Below are positions 4,050 to 46,366 of a stretch of DNA of 64,000 nucleotides, piece after piece. Below the pieces are notes generated by a model that saw only the letters and a program-made list of their open reading frames with translations, did no database searches and had not been told where the DNA came from. The stretch covers positions 1 to 64,000 of the forward strand of contig NZ_VCQU01000016.1 in assembly GCF_012932915.1 (NCBI RefSeq). The letters run 5' to 3'. Position 1 is the stretch's first letter. Every line of letters begins with the position of its first letter. Made by a program: the position numbers and the translations under genes. The DNA is from Antrihabitans stalactiti. GTDB lineage: Bacteria; Actinomycetota; Actinomycetes; Mycobacteriales; Mycobacteriaceae.

Positions 4050-5801
4050 GTGCTCGCGGAAATTCGCATCGACGGGCTGGGCGTCATCTCGAAGGCCAGC
4101 GCGCAGTTCCACGAAGGCCTGACTGTCCTCACCGGTGAAACGGGCGCGGGCAAGACGATGGTCGTCACCAGTCTGCATCTGCTCAGCGGAGCCCGGGCAG
4201 ATCCTGGGCGGGTCCGGCTCGGAGCCGCTCGCGCTGTCGTCGAAGGCAGGTTCACAACGGACGACGTCCACCAGGCTGCACAGACCGAGGTCGGCCGGGT
4301 GCTCGAGGCGGCCGGGTCGGATCGCGACGAGGACGGCAGCGTCATCGCCGTCAGGACCGTAGGCAGTGACGGACGGTCGCGCGCGCATCTGGGTGGGCGA
4401 AGCGTGCCCGCAGGCGTGCTCGGCGAGTTCACGGATCCGTTGTTGACCGTGCACGGTCAGAACGATCAGCTGCGACTGCTGCGTCCCGACCAACAGCGAA
4501 ACGCACTGGACCAGTTCGCGGTCGACACCGTCGCGCCCCTGCTGGCGCGCTATTCGAAGCTGCGTCGCGAATGGCTCGACGCACGGACCGCGCTGCTCGA
4601 GCGCACCGAGAAGAGTCGCGAGCTCGCGCAGGAAGCGGACCGGCTGCAGTTCGGTTTGAACGAGATCGACACTGTCGCACCGCTACCAGGTGAGGACACG
4701 GCGATCGTCGCGGATGTTCGGCGTTTGTCCGATCTCGATTCGCTGCGTGAGGCGGCGACGGGTGCCATGAGTGCCATCGCGGCGGATTCCGATGGTGCGC
4801 TGGATCTGCTCGGCACCGCGCGGTCGCGAGTCGAGACGTCCGACGACGTGGCGTTGTCGTCGCTCGGGCCGCGGCTCGACGAGGCAATCGCGATAGTTAT
4901 CGATGTTTCGTCCGAGCTGAGCAACTATCTATCGGGGCTACCGTCCGACCCGAATGCACTCGACTCGCTGCTGACCCGGCAAGCCGAATTGAAGCAGCTG
5001 ACACGCAAGTACGCAGCCGACGTCGATGGCGTCCTTGCCTGGGCCGACAAGGCGCGGGCGCGTCTGTCGAAAATCGATGTCTCTGCGGACGCGCTGGCTG
5101 AGTTGGCGACACGGGTGGAGACCACGCAGGCCGCCGTAGCTGCTGCGGCCGCGAAGCTGACCGCCGCGCGCGTGAAAGCAGCAGCGAAGCTTGCCAAGGC
5201 GGTCAGCACGGAACTGAGCGGGCTGGCCATGGGTAAGGCGACGCTCGAGGTCAACGTTCGCGAAGTTCTTGCAGGACCACAGGACTCGGCGCCGCTGACC
5301 GTCGGCGACAAAGTGCTGCATGCCGGTTCGGCAGGCGTCGACGAGGTCGAGTTGCGGCTGTCGGCGCACTCGGGCGCGCAGTCCTTGCCGATTTCGAAAA
5401 GTGCATCCGGCGGCGAGCTGTCACGCGTGATGCTGGCGTTGGAAGTCGTCCACGCCGGCAACGAAAAAGGCTCGACGATGGTGTTCGACGAAGTCGATGC
5501 CGGAGTCGGCGGTCGGGCTGCCGTGGAGATCGGAAAGCGCCTCGCAAGGCTTGCGCGCACCCATCAGGTGATCGTCGTGACGCACCTTCCGCAGGTCGCC
5601 GCCTTCGCGCACACCCACCTCGTCGTCGACAAGAGCGACAACGGCAAGGGTGTCGTGAACAGTGGCGTCAAAACATTGACCGACGACGAGCGTGTCGTCG
5701 AACTCGCCCGGATGCTCGCCGGTCTCGACGATACCGAGACCGGCCGAGCACACGCGGAGGAACTGCTGGCTACCGCGGCTGCCGAGCGGCTTCGCGCTTG
5801 A
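4050..5801 (+). CDS. recN: DNA repair protein RecN
   Basis: An SMC-like ATPase acting in double-strand break repair. The Walker A motif GETGAGKT is near residue 29, a coiled coil spans about residues 155-360 (LERTEKSRELAQEADRLQ and later helices), and the ABC signature SASGGELSRVMLALE with Walker B TMVFDEVDAGVGGRAA lies in the C-terminal part. The length of 583 residues is typical. The GTG start at 4050 puts LAEIRIDGLGVI at the N-terminus as in other RecN proteins. Its 3' end overlaps the convergent SRPBCC gene by 32 bases. Confidence 0.96.
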   Translation: MLAEIRIDGLGVISKASAQFHEGLTVLTGETGAGKTMVVTSLHLLSGARADPGRVRLGAARAVVEGRFTTDDVHQAAQTEVGRVLEAAGSDRDEDGSVIAVRTVGSDGRSRAHLGGRSVPAGVLGEFTDPLLTVHGQNDQLRLLRPDQQRNALDQFAVDTVAPLLARYSKLRREWLDARTALLERTEKSRELAQEADRLQFGLNEIDTVAPLPGEDTAIVADVRRLSDLDSLREAATGAMSAIAADSDGALDLLGTARSRVETSDDVALSSLGPRLDEAIAIVIDVSSELSNYLSGLPSDPNALDSLLTRQAELKQLTRKYAADVDGVLAWADKARARLSKIDVSADALAELATRVETTQAAVAAAAAKLTAARVKAAAKLAKAVSTELSGLAMGKATLEVNVREVLAGPQDSAPLTVGDKVLHAGSAGVDEVELRLSAHSGAQSLPISKSASGGELSRVMLALEVVHAGNEKGSTMVFDEVDAGVGGRAAVEIGKRLARLARTHQVIVVTHLPQVAAFAHTHLVVDKSDNGKGVVNSGVKTLTDDERVVELARMLAGLDDTETGRAHAEELLATAAAERLRA

Positions 5802-6201
5802 CCCCGTTGACGAACGTTCCGATCAACTGCTTCAGGCCTGCCTTCAACACGGCCTCCGGTACAGGAAGCTTCGGCGTCGAATCCATCGTGTAGACGACCC
5901 GGGTGCCCTTGCCGGAATCGCTGAAGAGGATCGTTCCGGTGTGGCTCTTGACGGGCGCACCCGCGACGATCTTGTACTCGATGCGCTCGCCCGGTACGAG
6001 CTTGGTGATCTGCTCGGAGACGCCGACCGGGCCGAGGCCCAGGAAGTGCACCGCGCCTTCGCCTTGGCGTTCGGTTTTGCCTTCGGACTTGAGGCGGGTC
6101 TTGATCGGCAGGAACTTGCCGTTGTTTTCGCGGTCGGCGAATATGCCGTACACGACGTCGCGGGGAGCGTCGATGACGGTGTCGACGGTGTAACTAGCCA
6201 T
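5770..6201 (-). CDS. SRPBCC-family protein
   Basis: A 143-residue START/Bet v1-like protein (MASYTVDTVIDAPRDVVYGIFAD, then GERIEYKIVAG and FVNGVKREAARQ). This fold makes a hydrophobic pocket for lipid or polyketide ligands, but no ligand can be inferred here. It has no catalytic motif. It is alone on the - strand, convergent with and overlapping recN, and divergent from steA across a 163-base gap that must contain both promoters. Confidence 0.85.
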   Translation of the reverse strand: MASYTVDTVIDAPRDVVYGIFADRENNGKFLPIKTRLKSEGKTERQGEGAVHFLGLGPVGVSEQITKLVPGERIEYKIVAGAPVKSHTGTILFSDSGKGTRVVYTMDSTPKLPVPEAVLKAGLKQLIGTFVNGVKREAARQPR

Positions 6202-6364
6202 GTCAAACCTTTCGGAAGATCACACATGCGTGTGGGTCCTAGGCAGCATATCGGGCGCCATTTCGCTGGCAGTTCGGGTCCAACTGGTGCCGATGTGACT
6301 GATGTGGCTATTGTTTCGGCGCGCCTCCACGCTCTGAGATAGCGGCGGGGCCATCATCGGACAC

Positions 6365-7549
6365 ATGAAAATTGCGGCATTGTTGTCCAGGAGCACGGAG
6401 TCGCTGCCCGGCATCAGCGGCATGGCCAGAGTCGATCGCAACACCGCCAGGTTGCTGCGCCGGGTCGGACCCGGCGACATCGTGGTGCTGGACGAACTCG
6501 ACCTCGACCGCATCACGGCCGACGCATTGGTGGAGGCGGGCGTGCTCGCAGTCATCAACGGGTCGCCGTCCATTTCGGGTCGCTACCCCAACCTCGGTCC
6601 GGAAGTCGTTGTGGCCAACGGCATCACGTTGATCGATGCGGAGGCGTCCGAACTTTTCAAGAAGGTGAAGGACGGCACCAAGATTCGGCTCGACGAAGGC
6701 GTCATCTATTCGGGTGAGCGCAAACTCGTCGACGGGCGTGAACTGCGCGAGGCGGAGATCTCCGACCGGATGATCGAGGCCAAGAACGGTCTTGCCACCC
6801 ACCTGGAAGCGTTCACGGGTAACGCAATCGAGTTCATCCGAACCGAAAGTCCGCTGCTCATCGACGGTATCGGTGTGCCGGACGTCGACTTGGACATGAA
6901 GGACCGCCACGTTGTGGTCGTCGCCGACGGACCGGACCACGCGGCGGACCTCAAGAATCTGCGACCGTTCATCAAGGAATACGCACCGATCCTGATCGGT
7001 GTGAACGCGGGTGCGGACACGCTGTGCAAAGCCGGTTACCGCCCGGACCTCATCGTCGGCGATCCCGAGAACATCACCGCCTCGACGTTGAAATGCGGCG
7101 CGGAGGTTGTTCTTCCTGCCGATTCCGATGGGCACGCGAAGGGCCTGGAGCGAATCCAGGACCTCGGCATCGGAGCGGTGACGTTCCCGGCGTCGGGTGC
7201 GCCTGCCGACCTCGCGCTGCTGCTCGCTGATCACCACGGTGCAGCTCTGATCGTCACGGCAGGTGCCGCAGCGTCGCTGGACGAGTTCTTCGACCGCAGC
7301 CGTCGCAACACCAACCCCGCGACCTTCTTGACCAGGCTGAAGGTCGGCACGAAGCTCGTCGATGCGAAGGCGGTCGCGACGCTGTACCGCAGCCGGGTTT
7401 CCGGCGGTGCGATCGCGTTCCTCATCCTCGCTGCGCTGCTCGCCGTCATCGTTGCCCTCGTGGCGTCGAACATGGGCGGCGAAGTGCTGGACTGGGCTAT
7501 CGCAACCTGGAATCACTTCGCGCTGTGGGTGCAGGGGCTGCTCGAGTGA
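6365..7549 (+). CDS. steA: SteA-like cell-division protein
   Basis: The 394-residue protein matches the Rv1697/SteA family that lies between recN and mctB in mycobacteria and corynebacteria. It has a thiamin-pyrophosphokinase-like core (LIGVNAGADTLCKAGYRPDLIVGDPENI) and one C-terminal membrane helix (GGAIAFLILAALLAVIVALVAS, about residues 343-365). In Corynebacterium glutamicum SteA acts with SteB at the division ring to promote cell separation. The stop overlaps the next start (GTGA), consistent with the two products forming a complex. Confidence 0.9.
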   Translation: MKIAALLSRSTESLPGISGMARVDRNTARLLRRVGPGDIVVLDELDLDRITADALVEAGVLAVINGSPSISGRYPNLGPEVVVANGITLIDAEASELFKKVKDGTKIRLDEGVIYSGERKLVDGRELREAEISDRMIEAKNGLATHLEAFTGNAIEFIRTESPLLIDGIGVPDVDLDMKDRHVVVVADGPDHAADLKNLRPFIKEYAPILIGVNAGADTLCKAGYRPDLIVGDPENITASTLKCGAEVVLPADSDGHAKGLERIQDLGIGAVTFPASGAPADLALLLADHHGAALIVTAGAAASLDEFFDRSRRNTNPATFLTRLKVGTKLVDAKAVATLYRSRVSGGAIAFLILAALLAVIVALVASNMGGEVLDWAIATWNHFALWVQGLLE

Positions 7550-8565: not shown

Positions 8566-10970
<2,405 letters not shown>

Positions 10971-21745: not shown

Positions 21746-22627
21746 GTGCCCTTCAATTGCCTCGCTCTCAACGTCATGTTGTCGGGACCCGGCGACGTGT
21801 CAGTTCCGATCGAAACGATCGAAAATGTGCTCTACGACTGGAACCGAGAACGTGCTACGAGTAGCAGTATTGTTCTGCTCCCTCGGCATTGGTCCACTGA
21901 CGGCGTGTCTTCGTTCTCGCTCGGCGCAGACGGACAGGCGGAGATAAATAACCAACTCGTCGAACAAGCGGATATCATCTTTTCGGTTTTTCACGCCCGA
22001 ATCGGCAGTGCCACAGCGCGATCCGTATCGGGAACAGCCGAGGAAATAGACAAAGCGATCGAGCGAGGCATCCGAGTGCACGTGTTCTTCTCGACAGCGG
22101 CGATTCCCCATAGCCATGATGCCGACCAATTCGCAGCTCTCAAGCGGTTCAAGGCTTCACTTGGCGCGCGCGGGCTGTACCGAGAGTTTCTCACAGACGA
22201 CGATCTGCGTGGTCTCGTTCGGCAATCGTTGGAGGCAGACATCGTCGCGTTCAATTCAGCAGATCAAGTTTCGACATCGCGTGACGGGGTCCGCCTCATA
22301 TCACGCTACGAGTATCGAGACGTCGTCGAAACCGATTCAAGCGGTCGTGTTCAAACTCGAAAGCACAGTCAGCGAATAGTGATTCGAAACGAAGGCGGTG
22401 CGACCGCTAGCGACGTTACATTGAGGTTCGACCCCGTGAGTGACGGCTCTGTTCCGATCTTGTTGACACAGGACCAATCCGCAGCACATTTCGCGGCTAT
22501 GGACCCTGAATCGGAGGTTTCGGTGCCGATTGCACTCCCGTGGGGGACGGCATCAAACCAGCGCGCGACTCTTACGTGGTTCGAAGGGGGCACGCGAAAA
22601 TCGCGAACGCAGACGCTGACCTTTTGA
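21746..22627 (+). CDS. DUF4062-type protein with C-terminal beta domain
   Basis: A 293-residue protein. Residues 1-175 carry the DUF4062 pattern: NVMLSGPGDVS at the first strand, IVLLPRHWSTDG, then INNQLVEQADIIFSVFHARIGS and SGTAEEIDKAIERGIRVHVFFS. DUF4062 is a Rossmann-like domain that I recall being grouped with TIR-type domains, often in conflict systems; enzymatic activity here is inferred. The C-terminal part (about 185-293) has an immunoglobulin-like pattern (IVIRNEGGATASDVTLRFDP). The protein at 41177-42094 has the same two-part build. The GTG start places the first strand at the N-terminus. The next gene, a TPR protein, follows on the same strand. Confidence 0.72.
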   Translation: MPFNCLALNVMLSGPGDVSVPIETIENVLYDWNRERATSSSIVLLPRHWSTDGVSSFSLGADGQAEINNQLVEQADIIFSVFHARIGSATARSVSGTAEEIDKAIERGIRVHVFFSTAAIPHSHDADQFAALKRFKASLGARGLYREFLTDDDLRGLVRQSLEADIVAFNSADQVSTSRDGVRLISRYEYRDVVETDSSGRVQTRKHSQRIVIRNEGGATASDVTLRFDPVSDGSVPILLTQDQSAAHFAAMDPESEVSVPIALPWGTASNQRATLTWFEGGTRKSRTQTLTF

Positions 22628-22760
22628 TACGAGGTGTATCGGCGCGGGACTCCGGCGGACATGCGCGTAATTGCCTGATTTTGGTGCGTGCTGCGCGTTT
22701 GGCGGGTTGAATTGCGCACAGGCTGTTGCGACTCGGCTACGGGCGGCTGCTAGGAGATGG

Positions 22761-25394
22761 ATGGTCGTGCGGACTCGGGGAGCCTTGGTGCGGTCGTTGC
22801 GGGGTTTGCCGCGCGGAGTGCTGCTCGCGGTTGTGGTGGCGTTCGCGGCGCTATCTTGGCAGTTGCTGGGCTTGCTCGATGCACACGTGTGGATTCGAGC
22901 TGCGGTTGCGGTTATGGCGTTTGTCGTCGCGGGCGCGGTGGAAGTGGATAAGGAATTGCTCCGCCGGCGTGAGGCGAGAGAAGTTAACGAGTCTGAGCAG
23001 AAGGAACGAGAAGAAGCGGAATTCCGCTGGCTACACGACGTGCGGGATTCGTTGCGTTGTTGGCCGCTGCCGACGGTCGATGATGTCGATCCGTACGCGT
23101 TGGGGGTGACGCGGTCGCGGCTGGCAGATAGATACACGTCGTCGGGGGAAGGTGTTGCGGAGTACATCGGTCGCGATGTCGATCGTCGCTGCGCCGAGCG
23201 GTTGCGGGGTAGTGGGCTTTTGCTCTTGGTGGGAGTGCCCGCCAGCGGTGTCACACGGAGCGCGTTCGAGTGCGCGCGGGGTGTCCGGTCAGGTGCGGTG
23301 GTACTCGCGCCGCGATCCCCGGATGGTCTGCGGGTTGCGCTCAACGACCTGGATGTGGTGTCACGATTGGCGGCTGGAACGCAGGTCTTAGTGTGGCTCG
23401 ATCGAATCGACATGTTTAGCGAGAGCGGTTTAACGGCGGCGATGTTAGAGCTGCTGCGCGAGCAAACAGTGGGATTGCGGGTCGTGGCGACGATTGCCTC
23501 GACTCGGTACGAGATGTGGGTGACCGGCCACTCTGAGTTGGCGGAGTTGTTCGGCGAACCTGTGACTCTGGGCCGCGCGCTCTCGGCTTCCGAGCGGCAC
23601 CGTGCGGAAAATAGGTACCCGAGTGTCGATTTCGGCGAGGGCATTGCAGGAGCGTTCACCGCGGTGACGGCGTTACTTCGCCGCTCGCGGGCGGGGCACT
23701 CCGGGTGTCCGTTCGAACCCGCTGGTGGTGATTGCGGATTATCCCGGGCGATGATTGCGCTCGCCGCGGACTGGCGAGCCACCGGGACAACTAGACCGTT
23801 GAGTGTCCATACCTTGCTACAGCTTGTGACACAGCCACTCGGTTCCAATCGGTCTGTCGATCCGGCGCACGCGGCCGAAGCGTTGCAGTGGGGGTTGGAG
23901 CCCCTTGTCGAGGGGCCCTCTTTGCTGTGTCAGGTCGCCGATTCCGATGGCGGCCAGTACGTGGCTATGAACGAGCAACTCGCCGAGGTGCTAATGGTCA
24001 ATTCTGAGGGACCGTCGTACGAGGCGTGGTGCGGTGCGATAGCCGACGCGGAGAGCCGGCGTGATTCCGAAGCTGTGGGTCAAATTGGCTTCCGTGCGCA
24101 CATGACTGGTTGCAACGTGATCGCGGGTTACGCGTGGGCCGCAATAACTGATCTCGATGAACCAGCCGCCGAATGGCTAAGCAAAGCCGCTGCATACAGC
24201 TTCACACACCGCGACCCGGCTGGTGAGTTACAACCCCACTATCGACTCCTAGACCTGATCGAAGCCACGTCGGGGCCTGACTCTCCGCGTGTAGCGATGA
24301 CGCTCGACCAGTTAGGAAACGCATGGCGAAAATGTGGACAAGCCGCGACAGCTCGCGACTTGCACGAGCGGGCGTTGCGCATCGCCGAGACGACATACGG
24401 CCCTAGACATGTCAATGTCGCAGTCACCCTGGAAAGGCTTGGCAATGCATGGTTCGACCTCGGGCGACCAGACATCTCCCGCGACATGCACGAACGGGCG
24501 CTGCAGATAAAGGAGCACTTCTATGGGGTAGACCATGTTGAGATCGCTACTAATCTCGGGGAACTCGGCGGTGCATGGACATTCCTCGGGGAACCCGACA
24601 AAGCCCGCATTTTCTACGAACGGGTGCTGGTAATTCAAGAGCGGGAATATGGACCCGACCATCCAGACGTTGCGATTACTTTGGATAATCTCGGAATAGC
24701 ATGGAGGAAACTCGCGCAGCCCGATACGGCCCGCAGCATGCTTGAGCGCGCTTTGCAAATACAAGAGCGGGCATTCGGGGATGATGACCGAGAGGTAGGC
24801 GCCACAGTTGCTAATCTCGGCGGAGCATGGTTTGACCTCGGGCAGGTCGCAATCGCCCGCGAAATGCTTGAGCGAGCATTGCGTATCGCGGTGCGTGAAT
24901 ATGGACATGATCACGCGAAAGTAGCGGGTTTGCTAGCGAACATCGCCAGCACCTGGAACACGAGCGGCGACCCCGGCGCTGCGCTCGGAATGTACGAGCG
25001 GGCGTTGCGAATCCAAGAGCGCGAATATGGCTCAACACATCCGGTGGTTGGCGCCACCATCGCCAATCTCGGAAGCACGTTATTTCAACTCGGCCGTCAT
25101 TCGAACGCGTGCGAAAAGTTTGAGCGAGCGTTGCAAATTCAAGAAGGCGCATATGGGCCCGATCACCCCGAGCTCGCCACCATCCTGTTCAATCTCGGTA
25201 CTGCACGTGGCGCTCTCGGACAACTTGCCGCGGCGCGCGACATTCTGCAGCGCGCGTTACAAATTCTGGCCATTCATTTCCCGGATGGGCATCCCGTTGG
25301 CAAGGCCATCGCGGAGAATCTTCGCATAATCGCGCCAGACCTAATCGTGTATGACAACGGTCGGATCTACAGTCAAACGGACACGACAATCTGA
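22761..25394 (+). CDS. membrane-anchored degenerate P-loop / TPR protein
   Basis: An 877-residue protein. A hydrophobic N-terminal pair of segments (GVLLAVVVAFAALSWQLLGLL, then IRAAVAVMAFVVAGAV) is followed by a charged helix and an NTPase-like region with GVPASGVTRS near residue 158, where the P-loop Lys is replaced, and a Walker B-like VLVWLDRIDMF. About nine 42-residue kinesin-light-chain-type TPRs (for example LDQLGNAWRKCGQAATARDL) fill residues 490-870. This is the layout of a STAND-like sensor with TPR recognition repeats, here with a probably inactive P-loop. ATG 22761 has an AGGAG site. The neighbour upstream is DUF4062, a likely effector partner. Confidence 0.75.
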   Translation: MVVRTRGALVRSLRGLPRGVLLAVVVAFAALSWQLLGLLDAHVWIRAAVAVMAFVVAGAVEVDKELLRRREAREVNESEQKEREEAEFRWLHDVRDSLRCWPLPTVDDVDPYALGVTRSRLADRYTSSGEGVAEYIGRDVDRRCAERLRGSGLLLLVGVPASGVTRSAFECARGVRSGAVVLAPRSPDGLRVALNDLDVVSRLAAGTQVLVWLDRIDMFSESGLTAAMLELLREQTVGLRVVATIASTRYEMWVTGHSELAELFGEPVTLGRALSASERHRAENRYPSVDFGEGIAGAFTAVTALLRRSRAGHSGCPFEPAGGDCGLSRAMIALAADWRATGTTRPLSVHTLLQLVTQPLGSNRSVDPAHAAEALQWGLEPLVEGPSLLCQVADSDGGQYVAMNEQLAEVLMVNSEGPSYEAWCGAIADAESRRDSEAVGQIGFRAHMTGCNVIAGYAWAAITDLDEPAAEWLSKAAAYSFTHRDPAGELQPHYRLLDLIEATSGPDSPRVAMTLDQLGNAWRKCGQAATARDLHERALRIAETTYGPRHVNVAVTLERLGNAWFDLGRPDISRDMHERALQIKEHFYGVDHVEIATNLGELGGAWTFLGEPDKARIFYERVLVIQEREYGPDHPDVAITLDNLGIAWRKLAQPDTARSMLERALQIQERAFGDDDREVGATVANLGGAWFDLGQVAIAREMLERALRIAVREYGHDHAKVAGLLANIASTWNTSGDPGAALGMYERALRIQEREYGSTHPVVGATIANLGSTLFQLGRHSNACEKFERALQIQEGAYGPDHPELATILFNLGTARGALGQLAAARDILQRALQILAIHFPDGHPVGKAIAENLRIIAPDLIVYDNGRIYSQTDTTI

Positions 25395-25763: not shown

Positions 25764-26603
25764 GTGGCCGCCGCCGAGATCGATCTCAAAGCAGCTATTA
25801 ATGCCGTGTCGGATGTAATTCAGAACCGTCCGCGTCCTATCCGCGAGTTCGACCAGATCTATATGAAGACTGGCGACATAGTGATGCAAAGCGAGTTCGT
25901 CGCCAACTGGGCTCGGGACAAGCAGCTCGCATTCATTGGCGATGGAGACGCAATCAGTGTTTGCGTTGCCTACTTGCACAATCGCGGGATAATCGACTAT
26001 GGACCGTCGCGCATCACCGTGTTCGATTTCGACGAGCGAATTGTCGGGGCGATTAATCGATTTGCTGACCGCGAGCGCCTCGCCACGCTGGAGGGTGTTC
26101 TGTATAACTGTCTCGATCCATTCCCAGTTACTCGACAATTTGACAACTTCTATACGAATCCGCCGTGGGGCGCCAGCAATAACGGTGAAAGCGTCAATGT
26201 ATTTGTGAAGCGCGGGATCGAGGCTGTCGGTTACTCAGGGGAAGGGCTCGTCGTCATAGCCGACGACGAAGAACTCGACTGGCCCAAGCAAGTGTTAGCG
26301 CAGGTCCAGGGCTACGCAGCCCAAAATGGATTCTTTGTGAGCAGAATGATGCCGCGCCTACATGAGTATCATCTCGACGACAATCCGGGACTCAGGTCTT
26401 GCAATCTCATCTTCGGCTCGTTACCAGGAAATAGCCGCAGCTTTGAAAGCGCGGAGGTGACGGACCCCGCGGTACTGGCTAACTTTTACGGTCGCTCCCA
26501 AGAGCCGCGCGTGCACTACGTCCGGGAAAAGAAGCGACTTGATTACGGTAAGGCGAACGACGGCGAGTATGAATTTGAATTGATTGAGAGAGGTAGTCAA
26601 TAA
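25764..26603 (+). CDS. BpsA (DUF43)-like Rossmann enzyme
   Basis: A 279-residue protein. Residues 57-62 (FIGDGD) and 87-94 (FDFDERIV) match the glycine loop and the acidic loop of branched polyamine synthase BpsA (DUF43), and NPPWG at 132-136 follows strand 4 as in BpsA and amino-methyltransferases. Known BpsA transfers aminopropyl groups from decarboxylated SAM to spermidine; SAM-dependent methyl transfer is the main alternative because of the N/DPPW motif. There is no thermophile context here, so a nucleic-acid or nucleotide substrate is more plausible, but this is inference. The GTG start has a strong purine-rich ribosome site. The stop lies 1 base before the next gene, so the pair is a transcriptional unit. 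Confidence 0.65.
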   Translation: MAAAEIDLKAAINAVSDVIQNRPRPIREFDQIYMKTGDIVMQSEFVANWARDKQLAFIGDGDAISVCVAYLHNRGIIDYGPSRITVFDFDERIVGAINRFADRERLATLEGVLYNCLDPFPVTRQFDNFYTNPPWGASNNGESVNVFVKRGIEAVGYSGEGLVVIADDEELDWPKQVLAQVQGYAAQNGFFVSRMMPRLHEYHLDDNPGLRSCNLIFGSLPGNSRSFESAEVTDPAVLANFYGRSQEPRVHYVREKKRLDYGKANDGEYEFELIERGSQ

Positions 26604-26604
26604 G

Positions 26605-27162
26605 TTGTTAGAACCCGGAGATGCGTTGCTTTTCATGAAGATTGGAACACACGCGCAGGAGGACCTGCGCGAGATCATCGCGCGGAAGCGACTAGAGATT
26701 GAGCAGGAAGGCCTTGCGATGTGGGGGTATGGGGGAAACACGTGCCATCCGACCACCATGGTGCAACCGTTCGCGCGCGATCAAGCCAATTCTGGCCATA
26801 GGATCGTGCTTGCAATGGAGCCGATGGATTCCAAGCATTTCGCGGAGCCAATCAGGGCCGAGGAATACTCAGTTGATGGACTCCAGTGGGCCCCCGTTCC
26901 CGACGGAATTAACGTTTTAGGTTCGCGATATGCACTGTGCGTTCGCGACTTACGCGAGGTCGAGGACGAAGTGGACTTAAGCATGACGCGTGTCGCGTTG
27001 GGAAACAGCAAGGGAAAGATTGGAAGCCGTTACGTTCGTGGCAGGGTTGACAAAGCTTGTCTCGAGGTCACGGCCGGCGCTGGCCCGGACGGCTCTGCGC
27101 TGAAGCGGATCGGGCTTGTCGCGGAGTTGATCGAACCGTACGCGGTCTTTCTCAAGAACTAG
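26605..27162 (+). CDS. unknown family, copy A (GTHA / WGYGG protein)
   Basis: A 185-residue protein that I do not recognise. It starts with LEPGDALLFMKIGTHAQEDL, followed by IIARKRLEIEQEGLAMWGYGG and CHPTTMVQPFA; the C-terminus reads GKIGSRYVRGRVDKACLEV and LVAELIEPYAVFLKN. It is clearly related along its whole length to copy B at 28963-29622. The TTG 26605 was chosen because it reproduces the N-terminus of copy B (M-L-x-P); TTG 26584 in the same frame would overlap the upstream gene. It is probably co-translated with the BpsA-like gene. A beta-rich, PUA-like ligand-binding fold would fit the spacing of motifs but is a guess. Confidence 0.65.
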   Translation: MLEPGDALLFMKIGTHAQEDLREIIARKRLEIEQEGLAMWGYGGNTCHPTTMVQPFARDQANSGHRIVLAMEPMDSKHFAEPIRAEEYSVDGLQWAPVPDGINVLGSRYALCVRDLREVEDEVDLSMTRVALGNSKGKIGSRYVRGRVDKACLEVTAGAGPDGSALKRIGLVAELIEPYAVFLKN

Positions 27163-27826
27163 GAAAAGAATCGCCTGGATGTAGCAATGTGGGTGCTGCG
27201 TTACGTAAGTTCTGTATGTAGCTTCTAAAGGCTCGGGCAACCGTCGCGTCATCGGGGAGAGACGGGTTCCAGCAAGAGAAGCAGATTGATAGTGCCGTGT
27301 CTACCGCCCTTTCCGCGCATACCTTGCTGCGACTTGTGCCGTACCCCGTGGCGTTCGATATTCCAACGATGACTTGTTCTAGGCATACCACGCGACCCGC
27401 CAAGGACTCAAGCGCAGGACAAAATACCTTAAGTTCTTCCGCAGCTTGAATTGCGCGTTTATCGCCCGTAATCAGTGTCTCAAAGCCGCGGGTAATGACG
27501 ATGGCGCAGAGTTGACTTTCTCCCAAATCTAGGCCGACGGATTGCCGGTTTGCAAGCTCCTCAAGTTCAGTAGCTAGGTCGATTTCGGATGCAGTCGGCT
27601 CAAGCTCCTCGACGTCGGCGAGGAATGTCGTGAATTCGACCAAAGCCGCTGCGCGATCTTCGATCCCGAACTTGCGTGCAAGAACCTGCCTGACTACGAA
27701 TCGCGCGGCCCCTAGGATCCCGACCGAATAGGCGCCGTCCGACAGGGCCGTGAGCTCGGATAACAGGCGATAACAGCTCATCTTGATGATTACGTCGTTG
27801 TCGACTGCACGTCGTGCCGTTGTCAT
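27152..27826 (-). CDS. PIN-type nuclease
   Basis: A 224-residue protein with a PIN-like arrangement: AVDNDVIIKMSCY (Asp9, Asp11) at the N-terminus, then LDLGESQLCAIVITRG, and ETLITGDKRAIQA as the third acidic site. PIN nucleases cleave RNA with Mg or Mn and are often toxins. It starts 6 bases after the ImmA/IrrE gene on the same strand, and its 3' end overlaps copy A by 11 bases (convergent). The upstream peptidase probably controls it. Confidence 0.7.
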   Translation of the reverse strand: MTTARRAVDNDVIIKMSCYRLLSELTALSDGAYSVGILGAARFVVRQVLARKFGIEDRAAALVEFTTFLADVEELEPTASEIDLATELEELANRQSVGLDLGESQLCAIVITRGFETLITGDKRAIQAAEELKVFCPALESLAGRVVCLEQVIVGISNATGYGTSRSKVCAERAVDTALSICFSCWNPSLPDDATVARAFRSYIQNLRNAAPTLLHPGDSFPSS

Positions 27827-27832
27827 TTCATC

Positions 27833-28828
27833 TCACTTTGACAAAATCCGACGCAAGTAGTCAGCGCGATCGAACCCGATGCTGCCCCATTGCAGTTGCC
27901 TGGCTGCGATGCTATTGATTGCGATACCGACATCCTCCGGCGATTGCTGACCGGGGATTATCTTGAGCGCACCTATTGATTCTCTCCAGCGGCCGGATGA
28001 GTAGGCTAAGCAAAGCGCGATGGTGCCTGGATCGATTCGTGTTGACTCCGCAGCGACCATCGCGGCATTCGCCACTTGCGTCGCATTATAGGTATCAACA
28101 TCGGCGACAACGTCGACTGTGTCGTGGCCTGTAAGAAGGGCGAGGGCGTACCCATCGGCCTGTAGCTCCTCATCGTCACGTTCGGTTGATTCCAGAGGAT
28201 TGTCTATATCAAGAATAGCGGCTGTGTCTGTGATATGTCCTGCGGCAATATGCCCCAATTCGTGCGCAATTATGAATGCTACCTGCGCGGGAAACCGCGA
28301 GTTTAGACCGATGAGTATCGCGTATCGATCGCCGAGTCGGATGCTCATGGCGTGCATCCGTTTCCGCCTCAATGGAAGGACATTCGTTTTGACGACCGGT
28401 ATACCGATTCCCCAGCATGCAGCAAGTAGGTCGCTCAGTTGGATATACTGAGCCGAAGCCAGAATCGCTTCGCGGAGGCCAATCGCAGATCCTGGTAAGG
28501 CTACAGCGCTATCTGGCGCGGCCGAGATTAGCGCTCGACCGACCGCGACACCGAACGAAGTGAGGACAAGCTGCTCGTTTGGCGTTGTGCCGCCGAGGTT
28601 CTTGAACTTCGCCTCGTCCCTCCACATGAATACTGGTGGACCGTCGAAGAGCGATCGAGGCGAGATGCCGAGCCGGCGTGCAACCGTGTACCTTAGCTCG
28701 GCGGAAGCGGATGTAGACGATTCCGCGTCAGAACTCCACCACTCGGGCCAGACGGCATCGATTGCAGCCCGTGTTAGCCCGGTGTTCGTTAGCTCGCGTC
28801 TAAGCGACCTCTCAAGATTCGATGTCAT
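27833..28828 (-). CDS. ImmA/IrrE-family metallopeptidase
   Basis: A 331-residue protein. The zinc site HELGH is at residues 189-193 (VAFIIAHELGHIAAGH) and the third ligand region is DEELQADGYALAL. The N-terminal part has a small helical segment (LRRELTNTGLTRAAIDAVWPEWW). ImmA/IrrE enzymes cleave repressors or antitoxins on stress signals. The gene precedes and is 6 bases from the PIN gene, so together they look like a toxin with its protease-type regulator. It is divergent from copy B, with a 134-base shared promoter region. Confidence 0.82.
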   Translation of the reverse strand: MTSNLERSLRRELTNTGLTRAAIDAVWPEWWSSDAESSTSASAELRYTVARRLGISPRSLFDGPPVFMWRDEAKFKNLGGTTPNEQLVLTSFGVAVGRALISAAPDSAVALPGSAIGLREAILASAQYIQLSDLLAACWGIGIPVVKTNVLPLRRKRMHAMSIRLGDRYAILIGLNSRFPAQVAFIIAHELGHIAAGHITDTAAILDIDNPLESTERDDEELQADGYALALLTGHDTVDVVADVDTYNATQVANAAMVAAESTRIDPGTIALCLAYSSGRWRESIGALKIIPGQQSPEDVGIAINSIAARQLQWGSIGFDRADYLRRILSK

Positions 28829-28962
28829 CGCCCCACTTTCTCTGTCGTAGTGCCGGCTTTAACCGGAACTCTATCGGCGTGGCGTTCGCGAAAGAGCAGT
28901 TCCCTGCGTGTCGCACGACTTATGATTCGGGCGACACATCGAACAACGCTTAGGAGCCGCCG

Positions 28963-29622
28963 TTGCTACATCCAGATGCCTTCTGTTGGAGCAAGTTTGG
29001 TACTGAAGCCGGAGAGCCGGCCGAGAAGATTCTTGCGCGCAAGGAGCTGGAGCGGCAACGAAACGGCGGAACATTCTTGTGGGGTATCGGCACGAGCATT
29101 CGGCCGTCGTTGATGGCCCTGCTTCAAGAAACTAGCGATCCCCAAGTGCTCTTCACGCCGATGTTGTCCGCGCCGTCTCGTGTCGACGTCGCCCCAGACC
29201 AGGTTGTCCTCTGGACCGCCGGAATCGGCATGGATGGCACGAAGTACGAACTTCCGGCATATTCGAGGGTTACAAGTCGCGCTAGCCGGAGGGGTCATTT
29301 CGCCCTAGTTTGTTCGAACGATATTGGGTTGGACGAGTCGGGCCGGTCCGTGGGTTCGATAGATCGATCGGGAGTATGCAACTTGCTGACTGGCAGCGCT
29401 GTCGGATCGTCGCAAGTCACCTCGGTCGTAAGGCGGGTAGCTGGATCGCGCCGAATGCAACGACCGTACTGCGTCGCGTTCACCGCACGACTTACGTACC
29501 CGTATTTGGTTTCTCTACACTCGCCGGTCGATGTACCTGGACCTTCACCACGTCATCGGCTTGTGCGACGAGACGAATCGCCGGCTCGCCTGGCCTCGAT
29601 TCCAGAGGTCGTCCGTCGCTGA
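28963..29622 (+). CDS. unknown family, copy B (GTEA / WGIG protein)
   Basis: A 219-residue protein related to copy A: LHPDAFCWSKFGTEAGEP, ILARKELERQRNGGTFLWGIG, HFALVCSN, AVGSSQVTSVVRRV and VAFTARLTYPYLVSL line up with the same blocks of A in the same order. The remaining C-terminal 30 residues are basic and absent from A. TTG 28963 is preceded by TAGGAG with 6 bases spacing, which fixes the start. No function is known. It is divergent from the ImmA-PIN pair and followed after 16 bases by an HD protein. Confidence 0.68.
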   Translation: MLHPDAFCWSKFGTEAGEPAEKILARKELERQRNGGTFLWGIGTSIRPSLMALLQETSDPQVLFTPMLSAPSRVDVAPDQVVLWTAGIGMDGTKYELPAYSRVTSRASRRGHFALVCSNDIGLDESGRSVGSIDRSGVCNLLTGSAVGSSQVTSVVRRVAGSRRMQRPYCVAFTARLTYPYLVSLHSPVDVPGPSPRHRLVRRDESPARLASIPEVVRR

Positions 29623-29638
29623 GTTCGATGGAATCGCT

Positions 29639-30199
29639 ATGCCGGTAGAATCGGCCCTCATGGTAGCGGTTGGTGCTCGCGAACTTGCGATGGTAGCGCT
29701 CGCTGGTCCATTGCCGCGACGCTGGTTGCATGTGCAAAGTGTGGGCGCCCACGCGGAACAAATCGCTGCAGCGTTCGGTGACGACGCCGAAGACTTGATT
29801 TCCGCTTGCTGGCTCCACGACGTCGGTTACGCACCTGCATTGGCGCACACAGGTTTTCATCCTCTAGACGGTGCGAGGTTCTTGCGATCCGAAGGCTGGT
29901 CCGAGCGCATTTGTGGCTTCGTTGCGCACCATTCATTTGCCGACCTTGAGGCCAACCTTCGTGGGATCGAGGGTCTGGACGAGTTCGAAAACGAGGACTC
30001 GGCGATTCGCGACGCCGTCTGGTACTGCGACATGACAACTGGTCCAAGTGGCGAGCGGGTCGATGTAGACCAGCGCCTGGAAGAGATCGTGTCTCGCTAC
30101 GGCCCTGCAGATGTGGTGTCGCAGTTCGTAAGTCGTGCGCGAGGTGAGCTCGTCGCCGCGGTGGAGCGTACGGAGCGCAAGCTCCGCGCGGCGAGTTGA
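29639..30199 (+). CDS. HD-domain phosphohydrolase
   Basis: A 186-residue protein with the HD motif in CWLHDVGYAP (His60, Asp61), an upstream His31 in RRWLHVQSV, and FVAHHSF (His97/98). This is the metal-dependent HD fold that hydrolyses phosphate esters of nucleotides. Two starts are possible: ATG 29639 (used here) or ATG 29660, which gives an N-terminus closer to common homologues. It converges on a Nudix gene with no gap. HD, Nudix and XRE/DUF5919 genes recur together in actinobacteria, as here. Confidence 0.8.
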   Translation: MPVESALMVAVGARELAMVALAGPLPRRWLHVQSVGAHAEQIAAAFGDDAEDLISACWLHDVGYAPALAHTGFHPLDGARFLRSEGWSERICGFVAHHSFADLEANLRGIEGLDEFENEDSAIRDAVWYCDMTTGPSGERVDVDQRLEEIVSRYGPADVVSQFVSRARGELVAAVERTERKLRAAS

Positions 30200-30684: not shown

Positions 30685-31449
30685 CTAGTTCCGTCGAGTC
30701 AGCAGCTCGGATGGCAACGGCTTCGAATCACCCCACACGGAGTTGAAGCTGTCGGCGTACGTATCGAAGAGGTCGCCGCCGGCTAGCTGGCGCAGATGTA
30801 GCACGGGGGAGTGTGCGGCCATGAGTCCGTAAACGTGAGTGTTGACAAGCATTTCGCTGTCGAAACGATATATCGAGTTGTACAAGGTGGTCTCGTGCAG
30901 CCGGAGCTCAACACCGGGCTCGTCCGAGAGTGACTGGAAGAAGAAAATCGCGTTGCGGATCTTCGCGGCGATTGCTTCTGGACCGATCTTCTCTTCTTTG
31001 CTGCGACTCGTGACGTTCAGGCTGTCTGGATCGCCGAATAGGAATCGGATTTTCGTTCCGGCTTGCGCCTTAGCGCGAAGCGTCTTGATCAGCTTGTGGT
31101 TCTCCGTCAGGAACAATCCAGCGTAGACGAGAATATCTAGTTGATTTGCAGCACTGTCTATTAGCCGAGACCAAACCTCACGCGGCATCTCGTGCCGATG
31201 GGGGTAGACGGCGACAACCTCGGACGTAGCCACTTCTGCTGCGCGTTCTGGCCCGAGCGCGTCCGGCCACAGGAAAGACTCTGATTCGCGGAGCAACGCT
31301 GCGAGCGCGTGCCTGTGTTTTGGATACGGCGTTCGGTCCTTCGTGATCCATCGTTCGATGGTCTTTGCGTCGACGCGAATCGCTTCCGCTGCCGTGTCGG
31401 GTGTCAATCCTTGGCGAAGTAGCGCGTCGCGTAGCCGGTCGTTCGTCAC
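30685..31449 (-). CDS. XRE-type HTH with DUF5919-like domain
   Basis: A 254-residue protein. The HTH is at residues 4-50 (LRDALLRQGLTPDTAAEAIRVDAKTIERWI). The remainder has a phospholipase-D-like/DUF5919 pattern: LDILVYAGLFLTENHKLIKTLRAKAQAGTKIRFLFGDP, later VNTHVYGLMAAHSPVLHLRQ. Such proteins are common regulators in streptomycetes and rhodococci; a nucleotide-sensing role has been suggested by association with Nudix and HD genes, which is also seen here. The repeat region upstream may be its own operator. Confidence 0.78.
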   Translation of the reverse strand: MTNDRLRDALLRQGLTPDTAAEAIRVDAKTIERWITKDRTPYPKHRHALAALLRESESFLWPDALGPERAAEVATSEVVAVYPHRHEMPREVWSRLIDSAANQLDILVYAGLFLTENHKLIKTLRAKAQAGTKIRFLFGDPDSLNVTSRSKEEKIGPEAIAAKIRNAIFFFQSLSDEPGVELRLHETTLYNSIYRFDSEMLVNTHVYGLMAAHSPVLHLRQLAGGDLFDTYADSFNSVWGDSKPLPSELLTRRN

Positions 31450-41176: not shown

Positions 41177-42094
41177 CTATGTGTTAAGCCATGTCTGACC
41201 GGTCAATTGATCAAAGTCGAGAACGGTTGTCGTCTCGATTTCCTTCCCGGACACGTCGCGATAGGTGAGATTTGCGGTGTGTTTAGTGGGGAGATCGGTT
41301 GTGCTTCGTTTGGGCCCGTAGTCCCAGACAGCCTTCCATTCTTGGCCCGGAACCAAGCAACTGAGAGTGTCTGGAATCGGCAAGTCTTGGATCGGTCGGC
41401 CTTCGCTATCGGGGCTCGTTTGCGGTCGTGGATCGATGTTCGGGCGAATGTCGAAGGCCGGCGCAGTACCGAAATTCCTGATGATGAGGTTTGTGAAGTG
41501 CCGATTCTGTGGCTCAAGTTCGAGGTACGCCATTACGTAGGGCGCTAGGCCGCTTTGCGGCTCAGGGGCATTGGCTTCGAGTCGCAGGCCGTCCCGGACC
41601 TTCGCGACGATATCTTGTACTGCACGTCGCGCAAACTCTTCCGGGTCGTCGAATTCGTGGTAGATCGACGAACTGCCCATGCGATCTTTGTACTTTCGCA
41701 GAAGCTTCATCTGCTTTTCGTCGAACGTTTCCGGGGCCACTGGACGGCGCGAGAAGTACAACAGCGCTGGTTTCTTCGCGGCGACCACGCGGTCGATTTC
41801 GTGCTCACTCGCCGCTGTCTTCTTGTCGGGCATTAGTTGGCCAATTCGGGTCCAGAAGATCCCGACTACGAGGTCGCACGTGTCGACTAGTTGCTCGTCG
41901 AGGATGTCCTGAGGAAGCTGGCCGACCGTCGGGATGCTGTCTGTCTCCCACATTCTGGGAAGCAAGACAACTTTGCTAGTCGGAGTGTTGCGCGCGTTGT
42001 GTTCCCACATTTCGCGGCGGAGTGCGTCCCGCTCTTCGTGGACGTCGCCAGGCGACGCGATGAACACATGGACGACGTGGGCTGTGTAAGTCAC
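41177..42094 (-). CDS. DUF4062 protein, second copy
   Basis: A 305-residue protein. VHVFIASPGDVHEERDALRREMWEHNA, VVLLPRMWETDSIP, ILDEQLVDTCDLVVGIFWTRIG and SEHEIDRVVAAKKPALLYFS are the DUF4062 pattern, better preserved than in the 21746 copy. The C-terminal part (LIIRNFGTAPAFDIRPNID) matches the C-terminal part of that copy, so both share the same two-domain build. The GTG start is the only one before the first strand. DUF4062 often belongs to conflict systems; an NAD- or nucleotide-directed activity is possible but not shown. Confidence 0.75.
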   Translation of the reverse strand: MTYTAHVVHVFIASPGDVHEERDALRREMWEHNARNTPTSKVVLLPRMWETDSIPTVGQLPQDILDEQLVDTCDLVVGIFWTRIGQLMPDKKTAASEHEIDRVVAAKKPALLYFSRRPVAPETFDEKQMKLLRKYKDRMGSSSIYHEFDDPEEFARRAVQDIVAKVRDGLRLEANAPEPQSGLAPYVMAYLELEPQNRHFTNLIIRNFGTAPAFDIRPNIDPRPQTSPDSEGRPIQDLPIPDTLSCLVPGQEWKAVWDYGPKRSTTDLPTKHTANLTYRDVSGKEIETTTVLDFDQLTGQTWLNT

Positions 42095-44305: not shown

Positions 44306-45213
44306 GGCGTGACTCCAGCGTCGAGAATTTCGATCATCATGCGATGGGCGGCGAGCGGGTTTCGGCTCGCTTGCCACGCCGCGTGCCGGGTCCGGGGGAT
44401 GAGACCGGTTTCGAGTACGGCGTTGGATTTCGGCGTCACGGCGTGCCAGTGCATCGTCAGTTGTCGAATCTGGCGGTACCGGCGCAGCCGCTCAGGCAGT
44501 TGGGTGCGCGCGTATATGACTGCGACACAGCAGAAGAGCAGTGCAGTCAATGACAATAGCGATCGAGATATGAGGATCGTGTGGTCGGTGTACCAGTTGG
44601 TGAAACCGAGATCGTCGAGGACGAAGAAGCTGACCTTGTGTACACACCACAGGATCAAGCTCCAACACGTTCCTGCGACAGCGATCAGAACTGTCCGGAT
44701 AGGGCCATTCTCGACCAGCCGCCAGACCCGACGAAGATAGAAGAGGCACACAATTGGCGTTGCCGCAGTTGTCGCGAGTATCGCCGCCCAGAACACAGCG
44801 AGAGGTCCCGTCGCCCGCAATGGTTCTGTGGGCGCCTCGATGTCCGGTGCAGGCGAAAGCATGAAGGTCACGATCAGGATCGTCCACAGGATCAGCGTGC
44901 CTGCCACGACTCGCCGCATCGATAGTTGATGGCCGGCGACGCGCAGCACGAGCGTCAATCCATTCCACAAGGCCGCCGTAAGTAGCAGCCAGGCGACAAG
45001 ACCGGAGATGCCCCAGACACTAGTCAGGGTGTGAAATCGGGGGTCGATCTGCCCGTACGCGATCGGTTCGATTTGCAAGAGGCTGAAACCCGCCAGCAGC
45101 ATGAGCAGGTTGGTGAAAGTTCGTGTGTTCGGTCTGTCCCGATAGGTCGGCAACCGCAGAGCGATTATCGCAACCAGCATTGTCGGAGCGAGCCACTGAA
45201 TGAGTCCGTTCAT
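44302..45213 (-). CDS. MAB_1171c-like multi-pass membrane protein
   Basis: A 303-residue protein with about seven membrane segments (for example WLAPTMLVAIIALRLPTYR, VWGISGLVAWLLLTAALWNGLTL, GTLILWTILIVTFMLS) and a cytosolic basic tail. It fits the family annotated as putative transporter MAB_1171c/DUF6545, often next to XRE and ImmA genes. The substrate is unknown. ATG 45213 overlaps the ImmA stop; ATG 45222 is an alternative start. Confidence 0.75.
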   Translation of the reverse strand: MNGLIQWLAPTMLVAIIALRLPTYRDRPNTRTFTNLLMLLAGFSLLQIEPIAYGQIDPRFHTLTSVWGISGLVAWLLLTAALWNGLTLVLRVAGHQLSMRRVVAGTLILWTILIVTFMLSPAPDIEAPTEPLRATGPLAVFWAAILATTAATPIVCLFYLRRVWRLVENGPIRTVLIAVAGTCWSLILWCVHKVSFFVLDDLGFTNWYTDHTILISRSLLSLTALLFCCVAVIYARTQLPERLRRYRQIRQLTMHWHAVTPKSNAVLETGLIPRTRHAAWQASRNPLAAHRMMIEILDAGVTP

Positions 45214-45764
45214 ACTCGCCACCCGATCAGAGCCGCGACCCGACGTACCAACTCCCTGTCACGTTGCTCGGCTGGTTCGCTATACAACTCTTGGCGTAGC
45301 TCGTCGGCGTGCCCCATGATGAGGGTGGCTAGCCATTCCGCTTCGCGTTCGATCGGATGGGTGAAGTCGGTGCGGGCCAAGCACACTGGGGTGCCTGCGA
45401 GGCGCTCGACCATTTCCGGGGTGATTCCCGGTGCGGCTCGCGACAGTGTCTGTTCGATGTAGGACTTCAGGCGGGCGGAGTCGGCTCGATGCGCCATCAC
45501 CACATGCGCGATTTCGTGGCAGATGATGTGTTCTCGGTACTTTCCGGCGGCGCCCTGTTTGACCAAGACGACATCAACGAGGTCGGTCGGAACCCACAGG
45601 CCGGAGATCTCGCCGCGTTCGGAGATGGCGCGGGGGAGTTCTTCGACCTTGATCAACCTGCCAAGTTGGAATCCGAGGTCGGCGATGAAACGTTCGATCG
45701 ACCAGGGACGCGAGAACGGCAGTCGTTGGAGTGCAACGGCCGCTCGGTTGTACGCGGGATCCAT
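45210..45764 (-). CDS. ImmA/IrrE-family peptidase
   Basis: A 184-residue metallopeptidase with the zinc motif HEIAH in HIICHEIAHVVMAH and the third ligand in REAEWLATLIMG. It lacks an HTH of its own. The upstream XRE gene overlaps by one base and is the probable target or regulator. The downstream products are membrane proteins, so the system may sense an envelope signal. Confidence 0.87.
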   Translation of the reverse strand: MDPAYNRAAVALQRLPFSRPWSIERFIADLGFQLGRLIKVEELPRAISERGEISGLWVPTDLVDVVLVKQGAAGKYREHIICHEIAHVVMAHRADSARLKSYIEQTLSRAAPGITPEMVERLAGTPVCLARTDFTHPIEREAEWLATLIMGHADELRQELYSEPAEQRDRELVRRVAALIGWRV

Positions 45765-46261
45765 CAGCTCGGCGATGGTGGCGGACTCGCGTATTTTGCT
45801 CGGACATTTTTGATGAGAGCACAGAGGTCAGCGACGGTGTCAGTGCTCAAGCCGTCCGTTCTGCTTCTCAGACCGAGCATGGCCATGTCCTCGTCACGAA
45901 GAACGAGGTAGAGGTCCAAGTTTCGATCGATGAGCAATTGGTCGTCGATCGTGCCGACGAGGTAGTTCTCGTCGGCTGCGAAGTGCCGCGCGATCGCGGA
46001 CAGCATCGTTGGGTCGGCCTTATCGGTCGCCCCGGACCGTAACGCTGCGATCGTTTGCGGAATGACAGGTTTGCCTAGGAGCGTCGAGACCCCTGCGGCG
46101 ACCTCGGAATCGGTCGGAATGGGCTCATCTCGACGCCGGCTGACCTCGAAGAGTCGGCTGATGCGGTAGGACAGGGCAAGACCGCCTTGCGGCAGATCGA
46201 TTGATGTTCTCTTTTGGCTCACAACGGACCTCCGGAAATCTCTCCGAATGACAATTGGCAT
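45764..46261 (-). CDS. XRE-type regulator of the ImmA operon
   Basis: A 165-residue protein with a helical N-terminal domain (LSYRISRLFEVSRRRDEPIPTDSEVAAGVSTLLGKPVIPQTIAALRSG) like the XRE HTH of actinobacterial BldB-neighbour proteins, and a C-terminal half of unknown type. The stop overlaps the ImmA start (TGATG). The start ATG 46261 is preferred to 46309, which lacks conserved sequence. Confidence 0.72.
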   Translation of the reverse strand: MPIVIRRDFRRSVVSQKRTSIDLPQGGLALSYRISRLFEVSRRRDEPIPTDSEVAAGVSTLLGKPVIPQTIAALRSGATDKADPTMLSAIARHFAADENYLVGTIDDQLLIDRNLDLYLVLRDEDMAMLGLRSRTDGLSTDTVADLCALIKNVRAKYASPPPSPS

Positions 46262-46366
46262 GGTGGAGATTGGTACCAGCAACGTTGCCGCAATCTCGAA
46301 TGAACTCACCGACTGCGCTCAGGCAGTCGATGTCTGTGCTTACTCCACCGGGCGACGTTCCGCCAC

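Follow-up and report, generated by a model that had tools for sequence, protein, structure and literature searches.

We analysed a 64,000-nucleotide stretch of the actinomycete Antrihabitans stalactiti (contig NZ_VCQU01000016.1, positions 1 to 64,000; hereafter, the window), in which two genes for small proteins, copy A (26605-27162, forward strand) and copy B (28963-29622, forward strand), lie on either side of a putative nuclease gene and a peptidase gene. With a methyltransferase-like gene upstream of A, they make up a compact set of five genes. The open reading frames (ORFs) of A and B were both confirmed: B begins with TTG, and the start of A is ambiguous between TTG 26605 and an in-frame TTG at 26584. 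The ~25 final residues of B are not conserved and have a mean predicted local distance difference test (pLDDT) score below 60.

Copies A and B are homologous

The initial annotation described A and B as similar over their whole length, with shared ordered blocks, and as old paralogues of an unrecognised family. BLASTP significance between the two is limited to residues 1-52 (E = 1e-7), and profile-profile comparison of 15 A sequences (alignment A1) with 12 B sequences (A2) yields a nearly full-length match (E = 2.7e-8, probability 95). The best of 200 alignments with the columns of B shuffled reached 0.0054, the reversed alignment 0.21, and no comparison of A1 or A2 with an alignment of another cassette protein (A3, A4 or A5) did better than 0.038. 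Against 20 diverse B sequences (A6), A1 matches at E = 4.3e-12, the best of 200 column shuffles being 0.0029. These shuffle controls rule out chance similarity: the homology of A and B extends from end to end, as proposed. The ordered blocks are equally real, with seven positions (R27, K28, E31, G36, W40, G41 and A110 in A numbering) identical in all 35 A and B sequences, and an intermediate sequence exists in the B of a 411,618-base contig (locus L060), which is 28% identical to A over residues 6-185.

Searches of family libraries returned no name for these proteins. Pfam gave chance matches at most for the 15 A and 12 B sequences, NCBIfam and PADLOC had no match to the two window proteins, and PHROGs, queried with the 12 B sequences of A2, returned three families with one member each (best 0.067). 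PDB sequence searches produced 26 matches for A1, all at 0.19 or worse and nearly all antibodies, none for A2 and one for A6 (1.7). Phage records contained no match to A (E ≤ 0.1) or to the L060 B (E ≤ 1), and those relatives of A that carry an annotation in plasmid records are labelled "hypothetical protein". The single-sequence query P0002 matched 53 of 396 Actinomycetota genomes at E ≤ 1, own genome included; the matches outside that genome were partial, many with internal stops, and were excluded from the relatives. Judging from these searches, the A/B family is unnamed, the libraries consulted holding no model for it. The profile comparison that the initial annotation had suggested is significant and no housekeeping family was matched, which, together with the Pfam, NCBIfam and PADLOC negatives, supports the view of A and B as old paralogues of an unrecognised family.

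Queried against its own genome, A finds two places only, those of A and B (E ≤ 10). Between the window and two Mycobacterium relatives, the proportion of synonymous differences (pS) in the A and B genes is 0.74-0.81 (saturated) and that of nonsynonymous differences (pN) 0.18-0.28, and both genes look to be under purifying selection. The lower pN, together with a confident structure model, rules out that B in the window is a pseudogene.

A five-gene cassette recurs across phyla

Inspection of the genomic neighbours of A uncovered a recurring set, comprising a BpsA/METTL5-like methyltransferase, A, a PIN-like nuclease, an M78 (ImmA) peptidase and B, often accompanied by an AAA_17 P-loop protein. 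A was located at 26 loci: 16 from the genome-contig scan, 4 on plasmids, 2 in the virus-contig collection, three further loci and the window; the phage collection contained none. The plasmid collection held five records with A, two of them from one strain, and four were examined. Loci were counted by hand from a gene-order table (tblastn, E ≤ 1e-4), and because L012, L013 and L015 are near-duplicates, as are L053 and L054, 26 is not the number of independent events.

The methyltransferase-like gene adjoins A in 25 of the 26 loci, the contig of the remaining one (L087) ending inside A. The PIN-like gene is present in 25 and the peptidase in 24, contig ends cutting L015 and L018, and the PIN-like gene follows ImmA in all 24 loci with a peptidase. 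B occurs in 22 loci (cut by a contig end in L006); L008, L015 and L018 stop short of where it could be seen, and L017 extends ~6 kb beyond the peptidase without it. In the L008 genome, B lies beside a P-loop gene at the end of another contig (L091). Fragmented genes were seen for B in L049 and L052 and for A in L018. Fourteen of the 26 loci encode the AAA_17 P-loop protein, four examples of which gave Pfam E-values between 2e-18 and 9e-13. Its gene lies upstream of the methyltransferase-like gene at 11 of these loci and next to A or B at the other 3. No such gene was found in the window, and the two Mycobacterium relatives yielded nothing more than a 33-residue match at 0.001 in L004. A helix-turn-helix (HTH) gene precedes the peptidase in four loci; two HTH queries (E ≤ 1e-4) found none in the window or the 21 others. 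In L012 and L013, what look by eye like metal-resistance genes (~8900-10100) separate the PIN-like gene from A, which means that the two convergent halves of the cassette remain together despite an insertion. L008 has a second methyltransferase-like gene (5691-6506, 36% identical) upstream of its cassette. An HD-domain ORF (29531-30199) overlaps the end of B in the window and was left out of the cassette because none of the other stretches has a relative of it (E ≤ 1e-4).

Hosts of A include Mycobacterium, Pseudomonas, Deltaproteobacteria, Acidobacteria and several Alphaproteobacteria (Sphingomonas, Rhizobium, Sinorhizobium, Agrobacterium, Rhodopseudomonas, Oceanicola and others), so that the loci span Actinomycetota, Pseudomonadota, Deltaproteobacteria and Acidobacteria as well as plasmids and virus-collection contigs. 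Pairwise distances of the five proteins, calculated for 10 of the 11 common loci (one near-duplicate being dropped), are congruent, with r between 0.82 and 0.93 and none of 2000 permutations reaching the observed value for any of the 10 protein pairs. The cassette proteins are sparsely distributed: of 394 genomes in the class, 2 carry A (one being its own genome), and of 398 Pseudomonadota genomes, 4 carry B (the centre genome among them). Two of the four examined plasmids were typed as conjugative, and G+C content at the window cassette is 0.55-0.58, compared with about 0.62-0.67 on either side. Features of this kind typify a mobile module of conditional use, and a housekeeping role is rejected on account of the sparse, mobile distribution. 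By eye, genes near the cassette in the window resemble those of a conjugative element.

B occurs without the cassette

A was seen only in cassettes. B, by contrast, occurs in 10 examined stretches from which the remaining four cassette genes are missing, and is therefore the more widely used member. In six of these (four Burkholderia records, L077-L080; L089; and a Methylomonas plasmid, L081), the lone B is accompanied by a divergent HTH gene, an arrangement that we note as a minimal HTH-B pair. Another lone B, that of a Rhizobium phaseoli plasmid (L076, 7983-10891), adjoins genes for a 330-residue hypothetical protein, TcmP and DUF5131. Three virus-collection contigs also carry a lone B: L055 and L056, which are nearly the same and have only 2-3 kb of contig downstream, and L060, from the 411,618-base contig mentioned above, with B at 8001-8579 of L060, where it is possibly a counter-defence protein or decoy. 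Partial arrangements comprise B with only the first ~57 peptidase residues (L061) and B, peptidase and PIN-like gene up to the contig end (L058).

This versatility raises the question of whether two units with separate jobs merely travel together, namely the methyltransferase-like gene and A on one strand, and B, ImmA and the PIN-like gene on the other. The orientation of B, which may lie on either strand independently of the other cassette genes, and its pairing with a divergent HTH gene outside the cassette would fit such an arrangement. However, the PIN-like gene is near A in 25 of 26 loci, the exception, L015, being one whose contig ends ~1.1 kb past A, and the distances of all protein pairs are congruent. 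We regard mere co-travelling as quite improbable.

A and B are predicted to resemble modified-base readers

AlphaFold models of A and B, made from separate alignments, are confident (pLDDT of 87 and 86, respectively), and the 50 PDB matches listed for each model are all YTH, EVE or McrB N-terminal domains. As in YTH and EVE domains, the N-terminal part of the A/B models runs strand-helix-strand-helix-strand with an invariant tryptophan in the second strand. W40, conserved in 35 of 35 sequences, is a candidate aromatic-cage position, in a place like that which we take the cage tryptophan of YTH domains to occupy. Several observations limit this resemblance. Structural scores are low (Z ≤ 4.2 for A and ≤ 4.0 for B) and lack sequence support, the A/B models differ from YTH and EVE domains in having extra C-terminal strands, and none of the 15 A and 12 B sequences matches the YTH (PF04146) or EVE (PF01878) profile at E ≤ 1. 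The profile comparison with EVE failed: against 13 of the 16 EVE sequences found, hhalign gave E = 0.26 for A1 and 0.87 for A6, the best of 100 shuffles each being 0.0003 and 0.0088. Among 299 Pseudomonadota genomes, none had a YTH domain above the cut-off, the one sub-threshold match containing internal stops. The models make a PUA-like fold of the YTH/EVE type probable for A and B, and the predicted resemblance to YTH, EVE and McrB N-terminal domains is best taken as a lead, not proof.

Companion genes and alternative roles

Directly upstream of A, the methyltransferase-like gene (25764-26603, forward strand) encodes a protein matching Pfam BpsA_C (PF01861; E = 6.5e-19, 68.6 bits, cut-off 27), with 90.2 and 64.4 bits in two relatives. 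In PDB, the family profile finds BpsA, the N4-bis(aminopropyl)spermidine synthase (5xnc, 1.6e-13) and, weakly, METTL5 (0.007), titled there an rRNA N6-adenosine methyltransferase. Homology with BpsA concerns the catalytic domain: the match begins at about BpsA residue 125, so the N-terminal part of BpsA is missing. An NPPWG motif, invariant in 15 methyltransferase-like sequences, replaces the acidic D-P motif of the BpsA chains (DPP in 5xnc and 2qm3, DPV in 6j27 and 6j28), which was not found in the methyltransferase-like protein; METTL5 has NPPFG. We infer that NPPWG is an amino-methyltransferase-type site. One could instead envision a polyamine or metabolite stress module, the BpsA_C protein being a true aminopropyltransferase whose product or partner A and B would bind or become. 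The above-cut-off PF01861 and BpsA matches speak for this, as do three plasmid records naming a bis-aminopropyl spermidine synthase family protein (a fourth says putative methyltransferase), but the METTL5-like NPPWG in the place of DPP or DPV does not, and plasmid carriage, sparseness, the protease and the PIN-like protein better suit a conflict role. This alternative appears very doubtful.

The PIN-like gene (27152-27826, reverse strand) overlaps the 3' end of A, tail to tail. Its family (alignment A3, 15 sequences) has invariant DND, DxGE and TGDKR motifs, with D9, D11, D100, E103 and D122 as the invariant acidic residues. The Pfam PIN model matches none of the 15 members, a PDB profile search gave one chance match only (7.7), and we treat the protein as a PIN-like candidate on the basis of its acidic motifs. 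The adjacent peptidase gene (27833-28828, reverse strand) has an HExGH motif that is invariant in 15 sequences (A4). Its product scores 21.2 bits with Pfam Peptidase_M78 (PF06114; E = 0.00027), just under the cut-off of 22, and 22.3 bits with Peptidase_M48 (cut-off 20.3), and matches PADLOC capP (6e-6) and, by PDB profile, CapP (7t5t, 2.8e-4). The HExxH motif and M78 profile assign it, by sequence, to the M78/ImmA-IrrE peptidases. Of the ImmA-PIN toxin pair named in the initial annotation, the ImmA part therefore stands, and the PIN part holds as far as acidic motifs go and finds no backing in the PIN model.

These neighbours could also form a toxin-antitoxin system of the Xre-COG2856-PIN type, with a PIN-like toxin, an M78 regulator, A and B as antitoxins or neutralising partners binding the PIN-like protein, not modified bases, and the methyltransferase-like protein tuning the antitoxin. 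The excerpted text of Makarova 2009 (PMC2701414) links M78 (COG2856) with PIN toxins and Xre, the succession of ImmA and PIN-like gene is invariable (24 of 24), HTH genes precede ImmA in 4 of 26 loci, and A and B adjoin the pair. Conversely, HTH genes were not found (E ≤ 1e-4) in the window and 21 other loci, B lacks both PIN-like gene and peptidase in 10 stretches, and the models of A and B resemble base readers. Such a system is, in our estimation, rather unlikely.

A candidate conflict module acting on modified nucleic acid

With slightly less than even confidence, we propose that the genes at 25764-29622 constitute one mobile conflict (defence or addiction) module acting on modified nucleic acid. 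This proposal builds on computed trends, namely A-B homology, five-gene co-occurrence as a conserved set, distance congruence and the mobility apparent in sparse spread and plasmid carriage. It also builds on the base-reader-like A/B models, the METTL5-like NPP[WF]G motif and the CapP-like M78 peptidase, and on a published parallel, the predicted PIN, EVE, ASCH, AAA_17 and HTH toxin-antitoxin systems described in the consulted portion of PMC7641849. The initial annotation had already suggested a conflict role, which context favours: the genes are kept together across phyla, occur on plasmids, are sparse and include protease, PIN-like and methyltransferase-like companions. It had not included 25764-26603 in the unit, nor the recurrence of the cassette or the YTH/EVE-like predicted fold.

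Under this proposal, the NPPW methyltransferase-like protein would mark RNA or DNA, or consume a substrate, and A, encoded right behind it, would read the mark or its absence. B would provide another reader, this one coupled to the arm formed by peptidase and PIN-like protein, in some cases through an HTH repressor. Upon a wrong mark (invader, phage takeover or element loss), a repressor or inhibitor would be removed by the M78 peptidase, its target perhaps being B, A or the HTH protein, and RNA would be cut by the PIN-like effector nuclease. The AAA_17 P-loop protein, encoded in many related loci but not found in the window, would be an accessory. A more specific version is a bacterial writer-reader immune cassette: adenine in RNA (or DNA) would be methylated by a METTL5-like enzyme, stand-alone YTH-like A and B would inspect the mark, a protease-gated PIN RNase would kill the cell where that mark is absent or foreign, and the lone B of phages would serve as decoy or counter-defence. 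As a whole, this version seems improbable.

No description of the cassette was found in the open-licence literature searched, and absence there is not absence from print. A compact cassette recurrent across phyla and undescribed in that literature is open to direct testing. If A and B read methylated bases, they would be a bacterial stand-alone relative of the eukaryotic m6A-reader fold within a mobile conflict module, with a putative writer encoded next to the reader, and one could then test where YTH readers come from and what part RNA methylation plays in phage defence.

Other features of the window

Directly upstream of the cassette, a 907-residue ORF (22671-25394) has C-terminal TPR repeats and, by eye, an N-terminal membrane stretch. 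The proteins encoded at 21746-22627 and 41177-42094 have similar starts by eye, the former with a weak DUF4062 match (0.048) and a PADLOC candidate (PDC-S60, 4.6e-19). An HTH-like protein (30685-31449; DUF5919, 23.9 bits, cut-off 23.5) adjoins a NUDIX gene, and a small pair at 45210-46309 comprises, by eye, an HTH protein and a peptidase of the HExxH (M78-like) type.

Comparison with known systems

The cassette peptidase is nearest by profile to CapP of the CapP/CapH regulators of the cyclic-oligonucleotide-based antiphage signalling system (CBASS). In contrast to CBASS loci, the weak capP match is the sole CBASS gene among the 10 window proteins searched in PADLOC. Comparable as well are the M78 (COG2856)-Xre-PIN toxin systems predicted by Makarova 2009 (PMC2701414, in excerpt), with which the cassette shares the neighbouring M78 peptidase and PIN-like genes and, in 4 of 26 loci, an HTH gene. 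It differs from what is described there by the added methyltransferase-like protein and A/B twin, and by the HTH gene not found in 22 of 26 loci; with the same two HTH queries (E ≤ 1e-4), no Xre/HTH partner was detected beside the window cassette.

The (PIN)-GNAT-EVE operons, predicted toxin-antitoxin or defence systems, encode a second PUA-like protein (ASCH), an AAA_17 ATPase and sometimes an HTH protein, according to the portion of Bell and others (PMC7641849) consulted. Because GNAT is missing (no GNAT or EVE match in Pfam among the 10 window proteins scanned), the cassette is not a member of these operons as outlined in that portion: a BpsA/METTL5-like protein takes the place of GNAT, an M78 peptidase is added, and the readers are stand-alone, paralogous members of an unnamed family. 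By the same partial account, the two share a PIN-like protein, two (likely) PUA-like proteins, AAA_17 (14 of 26 cassette loci) and HTH (4 of 26) partners, and a mobile, sparse distribution.
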